Positions 33,186 to 41,301 of a DNA stretch of 43,772 bases are shown here, piece by piece. The position numbers were made by a program, and so were the translations under genes. Within the stretch, counting starts at the first letter, position 1; the number at the start of each line of letters is the position of its first letter. The stretch lies in IMG/VR virus record IMGVR_UViG_3300032284_001401, positions 1-43,772 of that record; one strand, written 5' to 3'. The notes below the pieces were generated by a model, which worked only from the letters and a program-made list of their open reading frames with translations, did no database searches and had not been told where the DNA came from. The DNA comes from a virus.

Positions 33186-33218
33186 ATACTATCCGAATAG
33201 GCTTGGCGTGTCAAGCAT
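33186..33218 (-). promoter_or_regulatory. Early promoter with shared dyad operator (copy A)
   Basis: TTGACA (33209-33214), 17 bases, TAGTAT (33186-33191). The dyad GCTTGACACGCCAAGC occupies 33201-33216 and covers the -35. A copy of the dispersed palindrome lies 15 bases upstream. It closely matches the cassette at 41241-41301. Confidence 0.8.
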
Positions 33219-33229
33219 AATCCGAACAT

Positions 33230-36690: not shown

Positions 36691-36718
36691 ATATTACCGA
36701 CTACTTCCGCCCGGTCAA
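36691..36718 (-). promoter_or_regulatory. Promoter of the replication initiator gene
   Basis: TTGACC (36713-36718), 16 bases, TAATAT (36691-36696). The -10 is inside a palindrome CGGTATATTACCG (36688-36700), similar to CGGTAGATACTACCG in the origin region. It lacks the GCTTGAC dyad of the other early promoters, so it may be regulated differently. Its -35 overlaps the stop of the previous gene. Confidence 0.6.
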
Positions 36719-37050
36719 GAAAATTTATTGGATTTGTGCCAATTCTTGATCAGTCCGTCTAGTTCCCCACAGCCCAAGACCGCGCCAACTGCATCCGCGC
36801 CGTCTACGACCGCCCCGCTGTCGGTGTCTTTAATGCGCGATGATTCGGTGTATGGGTTGTTCAAGTCGTAGGTGCGCCGGGGCTTGATGCCGGGTTTCCC
36901 TTGCAGGCTTATGCCGCTGGCCAGGATCGACCGTAATAGGCGTAGGGCGATAGCCTTGTTTGTCTGGTTAGACTTGTCGGCGGAAACGACGATTTGTTCG
37001 CCGGTAGGCTTGTGGGTAAGGACAACATGTGGTCTGTAGTTTCGGATCAT
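36715..37050 (-). CDS. Peptide chain release factor-like protein lacking the GGQ motif
   Basis: This 111-residue protein contains VVLTHKPTGEQIVVSADKSN followed by NKAIALRLLRSIL, matching the THxPTG...SxxxNKxxAL segment of class I release factors. A later RRTYDLNN, SRIKDTDSG and GELDGLI match the RTY..., RI and LD-LI segments of the same family. The GGQ tripeptide that cleaves peptidyl-tRNA is absent and the N-terminal codon-recognition half is missing. It may bind ribosomes without hydrolysis or have lost that role. The palindromic repeat and AAGG lie just ahead of the ATG. Confidence 0.65.
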   Translation of the reverse strand: MIRNYRPHVVLTHKPTGEQIVVSADKSNQTNKAIALRLLRSILASGISLQGKPGIKPRRTYDLNNPYTESSRIKDTDSGAVVDGADAVGAVLGCGELDGLIKNWHKSNKFS

Positions 37051-37283: not shown

Positions 37284-37558
37284 TTTACTCTCCTCACCAC
37301 AACCATCTTTCCGCTCTCCGGGTCCGGTATCTCATTCCCACGGGTGATATGGTACGTCATCGTCGTGCGATTCAACCGGAAGAAAGCTGCCGCTAGCTTC
37401 ACACTGGCGAACGTGCGCCCAAGTGTATCCGTGACCGGCTTGCCCTGATAGGGCGGCTTGGGCATCGGCAGGCTCACCAGTTTGCGCCCGCATAGACCCG
37501 GAGGCAATGGTCCGGCCCGCAGGCACGCGGAGGCGATATGGGCGGGGTTTACGGGCAT
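37280..37558 (-). CDS. Small DNA-binding-like protein (NUMOD-like)
   Basis: This 92-residue protein contains VTDTLGRTFASVKLAAAFFR followed by NRTTMTYHITRGNE, the pattern of a NUMOD1-type helix-turn-helix repeat found next to homing endonucleases and in phage regulators. The start is preceded by GAGGATTACTCCC. An internal ATG at 37465 could give a shorter form. DNA binding is likely, target unknown. Confidence 0.5.
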   Translation of the reverse strand: MPVNPAHIASACLRAGPLPPGLCGRKLVSLPMPKPPYQGKPVTDTLGRTFASVKLAAAFFRLNRTTMTYHITRGNEIPDPESGKMVVVRRVK

Positions 37559-38001
37559 GGGAGTAATCCTCGTCGTTCAGCCCCATTCTTGATCTGGTGA
37601 ACCGCCTGACGGGATATGCCAAGTTCCCGCGCAATCTCTGCCTGCGATCTCGACCAGTCAATCGCTTCCACCCGCTTGATAAACTCAATTTCGCTTTGCG
37701 GAATCTGCTTTGGCAATCCCCGGATATGCTCATACACCGACGCCCGGCTTATGCCTAACGTCCACGCGATTTCATTGGCCGATGTGCCTTTCGCGTACAT
37801 CTTGCGGATAAACTCGCCGTTGATCTGAGCCTTGCGCCCGGACCCTGGTTTGCGCGGAACGTCAACGCCAGCATTGACGACTATCACCCGGACATATTCC
37901 GGGCGCATTCCCATAGCGTCGGCGATTCGCTCGTAATGTTCGCCGGACTTGGCTAACTCGATGATCCGTTTGCGCCGGTCTTTGCGTTCAACGTGGGTCA
38001 T
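37549..38001 (-). CDS. Multi-helix-turn-helix DNA-binding protein
   Basis: This 150-residue protein has three helix-turn-helix-like repeats: RKRIIELAKSGEHYERIADA, then FIRKMYAKGTSANEIAWTLG with ISRASVYEHI, then QAEIARELGISRQAVHQIKN. Serial HTHs suggest a regulator or a transposase-like DNA-binding domain that contacts an extended site. It starts from an ATG with GAGAAGGTGAAATA upstream and overlaps the stop of the gene before. It is a candidate for binding the shared early operator, but nothing shows this directly. Confidence 0.65.
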   Translation of the reverse strand: MTHVERKDRRKRIIELAKSGEHYERIADAMGMRPEYVRVIVVNAGVDVPRKPGSGRKAQINGEFIRKMYAKGTSANEIAWTLGISRASVYEHIRGLPKQIPQSEIEFIKRVEAIDWSRSQAEIARELGISRQAVHQIKNGAERRGLLPCP

Positions 38002-38153
38002 TATTTCACCTTCTCCAAAAGCGCGTCCGTAGCCCTTGCCGCTACGGCCCACAAGCATTCGTCGGGCTTCACCCTGACCGTGACGCGGCAATACTGCCTA
38101 TCGTCGGTGTACGTGGCGATCAGGCGCGAAGATGAGGGGATAAAATGGATCAT
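38001..38153 (-). CDS. Hypothetical protein, 50 aa
   Basis: A small frame between csrA-like and HTH genes starts MIHFIPSSSRLIATYTDDRQ and is joined to both neighbours by TAATG overlaps. It looks like a short beta-alpha protein (CRVTVRVKPDE, then a C-terminal helix). Coupling on both sides supports a real gene. Confidence 0.55.
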   Translation of the reverse strand: MIHFIPSSSRLIATYTDDRQYCRVTVRVKPDECLWAVAARATDALLEKVK

Positions 38154-38416
38154 TACCTCGCCTCTACTTCGGACCGTAAAATCTTCAATGTCTTTGGCGC
38201 ATCAATCCCAACATCCAGCTTCTTGCGCCGGGAAATGATCTTGATTGTCCCGCGACTCCGATATGCCTTAATGATCTTTTGGACAACCGATGCGTGATGC
38301 GCGGGATAGATGATTTCTTCAAGGCACTTCACATCCTCCGGTGTAAGTTCCATGAACACCGTGTTGACGGTGCCGAGGATCAGTTGTTCGCCGACGTTTC
38401 TCTGTAGGAAAAGCAT
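38153..38416 (-). CDS. csrA: CsrA-like RNA-binding protein with an internal insertion
   Basis: The first 15 residues (MLFLQRNVGEQLILG) and the last 31 (TIKIISRRKKLDV, then GIDAPKTLKILRSEV) match the start and end of CsrA. That protein is usually about 61 residues and represses translation by binding GGA motifs near ribosome-binding sites. Leu4, Arg6 and the equivalent of Arg44 (Arg81) are kept. A 41-residue segment (residues 16-56, TPEDVKCLEEIIYPAHHASV) sits between the second and third strands. It is downstream of ssb and a palindromic repeat, so it is transcribed with the early operon. It may act on phage or host mRNAs; the insertion's role is unknown. Confidence 0.75.
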   Translation of the reverse strand: MLFLQRNVGEQLILGTVNTVFMELTPEDVKCLEEIIYPAHHASVVQKIIKAYRSRGTIKIISRRKKLDVGIDAPKTLKILRSEVEAR

Positions 38417-38439
38417 GAGAACCTTAGTTAGTGAGCCTT

Positions 38440-38455
38440 GCGCCAAATTTGGCGC
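38440..38455. repeat. Dispersed palindrome, copy 7
   Basis: GCGCCAAATTTGGCGC, perfect, with arms extending to CCTT / AAGG (38436-38459). It lies 4 bases after the ssb stop and 23 bases before the csrA-like start. Confidence 0.85.
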
Positions 38456-38459
38456 AAGG

Positions 38460-38894
38460 TCAGAACGGCACTGAATCGTCGTCGTCAAACGCCGGTTTCG
38501 CTGCACCCTTCGCCGGTGCCGGTTCGCGTTCGTCAGAATCGCCTTCCGACTTGCCGCCGTCGCCACGCGGGAGGAACGTGAATGTCTCGCCGATCAACTT
38601 GTGCTTCGAGCGTTTCGCGCCGCTTTCCTTCTCCGACCAGTTTTCCTGCTTCAATCTCCCGACGACCAAAATCGAATCGCCCTTCTTGAAATACTGCGCG
38701 ATAACCTCGCCAGCCTTTCCGAAGAATGAGACTTCAAGGAACGTCACTTCATCGCGTTGTTCGCCTTGCGCCGTCTTGTAGCGATGGTTGATGGCGATGG
38801 AAAACTCCGTGACGGATGTTCCGCTGGGAAGCGTCTTGCTGGCGCAGTCCTTGGTTAAGTTGCCGATAAATGTACATTGATTGAAACTTGCCAT
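38460..38894 (-). CDS. ssb: Single-stranded DNA-binding protein
   Basis: This 144-residue protein has the OB-fold pattern of bacterial SSB: FNQCTFIGNLTKDCASKTLP, VTEFSIAINHRYKT, TFLEVSFFGKAGEV and GDSILVVGRLKQENW. It ends in an acidic tail DDDDSVPF like the partner-binding tip of host SSB. It coats single-stranded DNA in phage replication and recombination, next to Bet-type annealing. The ATG has AGAGGGCAC upstream, and a 134-base leader with two strong hairpins precedes it. Confidence 0.88.
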   Translation of the reverse strand: MASFNQCTFIGNLTKDCASKTLPSGTSVTEFSIAINHRYKTAQGEQRDEVTFLEVSFFGKAGEVIAQYFKKGDSILVVGRLKQENWSEKESGAKRSKHKLIGETFTFLPRGDGGKSEGDSDEREPAPAKGAAKPAFDDDDSVPF

Positions 38895-39034: not shown

Positions 39035-39065
39035 AATCTAGCGTATCACGCTTGCCGCGTCAAGC
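39035..39065 (-). promoter_or_regulatory. Early promoter of the ssb operon (dyad copy C)
   Basis: TTGACG (39058-39063), 17 bases, TAGATT (39035-39040). The dyad GCTTGACGCGGCAAGC lies at 39050-39065 and covers the -35. The expected start near 39028 gives a 134-base leader before ssb. Confidence 0.75.
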
Positions 39066-39076
39066 ATAAAGTCCAA

Positions 39077-41256: not shown

Positions 41257-41270
41257 ATGGTCGGATTTAT

Positions 41271-41301
41271 GCTTGACACGGCAAGCGAAGGGCTGTAGCA
41301 T
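41271..41301 (+). promoter_or_regulatory. Early promoter of the bet gene (dyad copy E)
   Basis: TTGACA (41273-41278), 17 bases, TAGCAT (41296-41301). The dyad GCTTGACACGGCAAGC lies at 41271-41286. The expected start is near 41308, with GGAGAAAGAT before the ATG at 41336. Confidence 0.8.

Follow-up and report, generated by a model that had tools for sequence, protein, structure and literature searches.

We analysed a csrA-like gene of an uncultured phage within a window of 43,772 bases that covers an entire IMG/VR virus record. The gene encodes an 87-aa protein (MLFLQRNVGEQLILGTVNTVFMELTPEDVKCLEEIIYPAHHASVVQKIIKAYRSRGTIKIISRRKKLDVGIDAPKTLKILRSEVEAR). Its own reading frame scored best on phage codon usage (+0.24 bits per codon vs −0.43 and −0.29). 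On the minus strand, the gene order is ssb, the csrA-like gene, a 50-aa ORF and a helix-turn-helix (HTH) gene (Table 1), with genes for a replication-initiation protein, HNH endonucleases and a helicase farther on. RecT-like and exonuclease VIII genes lie near this operon on the opposite strand. A sequence-only reading of this DNA had placed the gene between ssb and HTH genes, and the Pfam and PHROG matches of the neighbours bear this out. The csrA-like TAA stop overlaps the following start codon (TAATG), and the 50-aa ORF had no family match in Pfam or PHROG searches. The compact operon around the csrA-like gene is a replication region, and its expression is probably early. We found no close relative of the right-hand 24 kb of the window among phage records, and kin of the phage sought through the RecT-like protein or through a repeated palindrome were likewise not found.

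Table 1. Features at the csrA-like locus (positions in the window).
Feature	Position	Strand	Description and evidence
csrA-like gene, enlarged middle	38153..38416	minus	87 aa + stop; translation, Pfam PF02599 (30.9 bits), codon usage
N-terminal CsrA part	38369..38416	minus	residues 1-16, β1-β2; local profile match 1-16
Inserted segment	38249..38371	minus	residues ~16-56; alignment A6; no family match
C-terminal CsrA part	38156..38248	minus	residues 57-87; profile match 64-86, Pfam 62-85
ssb gene	38463..38894	minus	upstream of csrA-like gene; Pfam SSB 96.4 bits, PHROG 44
50-aa ORF	38001..38153	minus	downstream of csrA-like gene; its ATG overlaps the csrA-like stop
Helix-turn-helix protein gene	37549..38001	minus	next in operon; HTH Pfam and PHROG matches
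Perfect palindrome CCTTGCGCCAAATTTGGCGCAAGG	38436..38460	none	between ssb and csrA-like gene; one of nine intergenic copies

The palindrome occurs in nine copies around GCGCCAAATTTGGCGC (positions 2498, 6799, 28372, 30323, 33232, 37064, 38442, 38923 and 41243), apparently all in gaps between genes. Its core gave 14 matches at ≤2 mismatches in the window compared to 3.5 expected, and the exact 16-mer occurs once in each of six other viral contigs. These copies could serve as stoperator-like operators or form RNA hairpins. Near palindrome copies we also observed a repeated TTATGCTTGACACGGCAAGC-like element with a TTGACA box (33201-33220, 39050-39069 and 41267-41286), possibly a shared promoter. 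A separate small protein (36718-37035, minus strand) has an RF-1-like stretch that falls below the Pfam cut-off (23.8 bits; cut-off 35). Because this match is confined to profile positions 34-75, the protein apparently lacks the GGQ part. It is a second gene near the csrA-like gene that is possibly related to translation.

We assessed CsrA membership with several profiles. The Pfam CsrA family (PF02599) matched the whole protein above its curated cut-off of 27 bits (30.9 bits, E = 2.7e-7), and the score rose to 39.8 bits, covering profile positions 1-48, when the two ends were joined. A six-frame genome search with the same family gave 21.1 bits, below the cut-off, and found the C-terminal part only. 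PHROG 9500 (CsrA-like regulator) also matched. A local CsrA profile built from 13 sequences matched two separate, collinear stretches, one at each end of the protein, and the middle matched nothing. The sequence-only reading had described a split CsrA with CsrA-like ends; in the profile search, which could have spoken against such ends, both matched CsrA. The score with the NCBIfam csrA equivalog TIGR00202 was 24.4 bits (31.3 with the ends joined), under the equivalog cut-off of 70.1. As the protein is below the cut-offs of the NCBI equivalog models, it is a divergent member and not a canonical CsrA orthologue.

The residues expected to contact RNA, Leu4, Arg6 and the equivalent of Arg44 (here Arg81), are all kept, in agreement with what had been read from the sequence alone. 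Leu4, Arg6, Gly70, Ala73, Pro74, Arg81 and Glu83, the last being the salt-bridge glutamate, were invariant in our alignments. Arg7 of CsrA is replaced by Asn. The protein shares the N-terminal MLxLxR..GE and C-terminal GIDAPK...R.E patterns with canonical and phage CsrAs. Its C-terminal part would consist of a presumed β3 followed by β4-β5, which carry Arg81. Canonical CsrA/RsmA has a short β2-β3 turn and usually a C-terminal helix; the phage protein has neither, and its chain ends four residues past the presumed β5.

In the best alignment (A6, with the strands in register), the insert spans ~41 residues (16-56) between β2 and β3, a net gain of 37 residues over canonical CsrA spacing. Alignments A1 and A6 support the earlier placement of an insertion between strands two and three of an 87-residue protein. 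Sequence defines the left edge of the insert well but leaves the exact right edge uncertain, as no profile signal comes from the presumed β3 (57-62): 422 of 500 shuffles scored at least equally with the local CsrA profile. The 41-residue insert had no match in a PDB sequence search.

We modelled the monomer with AlphaFold2. From the single sequence, helices were predicted at 26-36 and 42-54 with low confidence (pLDDT 47, pTM 0.30). MAFFT with many CsrAs put β3 wrongly onto the helix, so only the A6 alignment was fed to the second model. This three-sequence model had strands at 2-7, 10-15, 58-61, 66-71 and 78-83 and helices at 26-36 and 42-55, in the order β1-β2-α-α-β3-β4-β5, again at low confidence (pLDDT 41, pTM 0.26). 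Foldseek returned no CsrA match with these models, which are too poor for a meaningful search. Residue propensities were mixed (helix at ~24-36, ambiguous at 43-51), and helical-moment scores were not significant. Given the low-confidence models and mixed propensities, a two-helix insert is a weakly supported guess; the models suggest only that the insert possibly forms two helices. The earlier description of an inserted "domain" is not borne out by the models or by the PDB sequence search.

The closest architectural parallel is RsmN/RsmF of Pseudomonas aeruginosa, which has a 16-residue helical insert between β2 and β3 (PMC3791407). With this insert, RsmN forms two docked monomers instead of a swapped dimer and retains its RNA-binding surface, and RsmN-like proteins end early and have in common a Gly-Ile motif after the inserted helix (PMC3791407). 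We checked the RsmN sequence used for comparison against PDB 4KJI and 4K59 (RsmN structures: 4KJI, 4KRW and 4K59). Both RsmN/RsmF and the phage protein belong to the CsrA family, carry a β2-β3 insert at about the same site, keep the Arg44 equivalent and the Arg-Glu salt-bridge residues, lack the C-terminal helix and end just after β5. They differ in that RsmN is bacterial and its insert is a single helix, whereas the phage-borne protein gains a net 37 residues, more than twice as many, possibly as two helices according to the models. The Gly-Ile motif is absent from the phage protein, which has Gly56-Thr57-Ile58 (Gly-Thr-Ile). BLASTP scores were alike for RsmN (22.7 bits) and CsrA (21.6 bits), and sequence does not place the phage protein nearer to RsmN than to CsrA. 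The likeness to RsmN is thus one of architecture and probably convergent. The sequence-only reading knew of no CsrA with an insertion. That claim was wrong, both because of RsmN/RsmF (PMC3791407) and because we found further enlarged phage CsrAs. In the literature consulted, RsmN is the sole inserted CsrA published so far, and the phage protein adds a variant with an unrelated insert.

Direct searches of viral contigs, genome contigs, phages and plasmids found no relative of the full 87-aa protein, and none of these collections yielded a relative that shares its insert. We also searched with gapped DNA patterns that must begin with ATGCT or ATGTT and end in a G[I/V]xAP[K/R]-like motif; with both ends fixed in this way, they miss variants. 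With the gap length of the window protein, these patterns gave only chance matches interrupted by stops in viral contigs. With other gap lengths or codons, and on genome contigs, they recovered longer CsrAs, to which we added a search among phage records. Some viral CsrAs have 5 to ~13 extra residues in the β2-β3 region, and some of these lack the C-terminal helix. The CsrA of Pseudomonas phage vsMR (L009) has ~40 extra residues, as does that of L090 (2065-2361), which is encoded directly upstream of a terminase and a P22-like portal gene and so lies among phage packaging genes, not in a replication operon. Two planctomycete proteins (L029 and L087) are enlarged CsrAs that look tandem or partly tandem. 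Clear tandem double CsrAs in a single chain were present in four viral contigs (L119, L120, L121 and L123). Among the tandem-looking proteins (L119-L121, L123, L029, L087 and L009), those scanned gave two Pfam CsrA stretches. A literature search on the phrase "tandem CsrA" returned no paper.

The proteins of L119, L120, L121, L123, vsMR and L090 resemble the window protein in having CsrA ends with ~40 extra residues between them, in phages. The window protein might descend from two fused ancestral copies, like those in other phages, whose middle (β3-β4-β1'-β2') diverged past recognition, and it would then fold as a single chain with two CsrA halves. Its Ala-Pro motif has an offset of 72, almost the same as in the tandem viral CsrAs (73-74) and not far from that in other long ones (75-79), which makes this a serious rival; the protein also aligned end to end with the tandem profile with small gaps. 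However, the middle carries no CsrA signal: with the local CsrA profile, 340 of 500 shuffles of residues 16-38 and 500 of 500 shuffles of residues 39-56 scored at least equally. In the middles of L119, vsMR and L090, one or both halves gave a CsrA-repeat signal, and all four positive controls (these three and L029) were positive in one or both middle parts. Scored with the tandem profile, the real middle was equalled or beaten by 479 of 500 shuffled ones, and the weak models put helices in the middle. The shuffle tests and their controls show that no repeat signal is left, though a repeat may have eroded past detection. The shuffle tests did not support the insert as a CsrA repeat, and residue propensities were indecisive on this point. 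We consider a decayed tandem origin unlikely.

We think it fairly probable that the protein is a phage-encoded CsrA-type RNA-binding regulator, probably rearranged like RsmN. It would be made early, probably together with the replication genes. By this account the protein would retain the strands of CsrA and the edge that contacts GGA, ~40 residues, possibly forming two helices, would replace the short β2-β3 turn, and the usual C-terminal helix would be lost. If it acts as in RsmN, the insert would keep β2 and β3 from pairing within one sheet and provide a further face for dimer packing or partner binding, and the dimer would still bind ANGGA sites near ribosome-binding sites. Its most likely use would be to alter how host or phage mRNAs are translated, or to compete with host CsrA for RNAs. 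The Pfam score over the cut-off and its rise with the ends joined, together with the retention of Leu4, Arg6, Arg81 and Glu83, speak for this regulator. So do the insert at about the RsmN site, the end after β5 as in RsmN, the compact replication operon and, at low confidence, the strand and helix order of the second model. Against it stand the poor scores of both models and the missing Foldseek match to CsrA, the change of Arg7 to Asn, Gly-Thr-Ile in place of Gly-Ile, and BLASTP scores about equal for RsmN and CsrA. Loss of the C-terminal helix is also seen in some viral CsrAs that have no long insert.

We examined candidate targets in the phage itself. The leader of the csrA-like gene has no GGA in its last 40 bases. 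A GGA in a hairpin loop was present in 8 of 43 candidate leaders, where random windows would give 3.1. Dinucleotide shuffles of these leaders gave 5.6, and 10 of 40 shuffle sets reached 8, so the GGA loops are not enriched over shuffles, and we dropped the idea of such an enrichment. The leader scan thus points to no particular targets. This result also counts against the favoured regulator.

To our knowledge, what csrA genes do in phages has barely been tested. Phage-carried homologues include PTXU04_00028, RsmM of P. aeruginosa phages and Vibrio phage CsrAs. According to a 2020 survey, csrA genes occur in 30 of 2,517 phage genomes (PMC7366521). Knock-down of PTXU04_00028 led to smaller plaques (PMC11879866), so a phage CsrA can be relevant to infection; this effect is in line with the regulator proposed above. 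In the phage csrA literature consulted, no inserted phage CsrA is described (PMC7366521, PMC11879866).

The protein might instead keep the CsrA dimer surface without useful RNA binding and disable or redirect the host regulator, either by pairing with host CsrA or through a partner bound by the insert. The change of Arg7 to Asn at the RNA edge, the availability of a new segment as a partner-binding site and the phage leaders without target enrichment are consistent with such interference. However, Leu4, Arg6 and the Arg44 equivalent are kept and would be dispensable for a pure decoy, and, according to the 2020 survey, mixed dimers of CsrA paralogues have yet to be demonstrated (PMC7366521). 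We regard interference as rather improbable. That the CsrA resemblance arose by chance, or that the gene is non-functional, is very improbable: no relative with the same insert was found and the models are poor, but the Pfam E-value of 2.7e-7, the two collinear ends, the in-frame coding signal and the start/stop overlap within the operon all argue against it.

CsrA is a tiny, strongly constrained dimer. RsmN carries the only published insert that rebuilds its topology in the literature consulted. The phage-borne insert lies at about the site used in RsmN but has no sequence kinship to that of RsmN, and this second case suggests that the β2-β3 junction tolerates rebuilding. As a doubtful further step, an independently acquired helical module at this junction might give rise to a new type of dimer without strand swapping and to a face for binding partners, with the CsrA core serving as a scaffold that redirects host translation or the host CsrA network; the junction would then be a general site at which phages rebuild CsrA. 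Together with the tandem and otherwise enlarged phage CsrAs, the insert variant described here provides a natural variant set for testing the limits of the CsrA fold.
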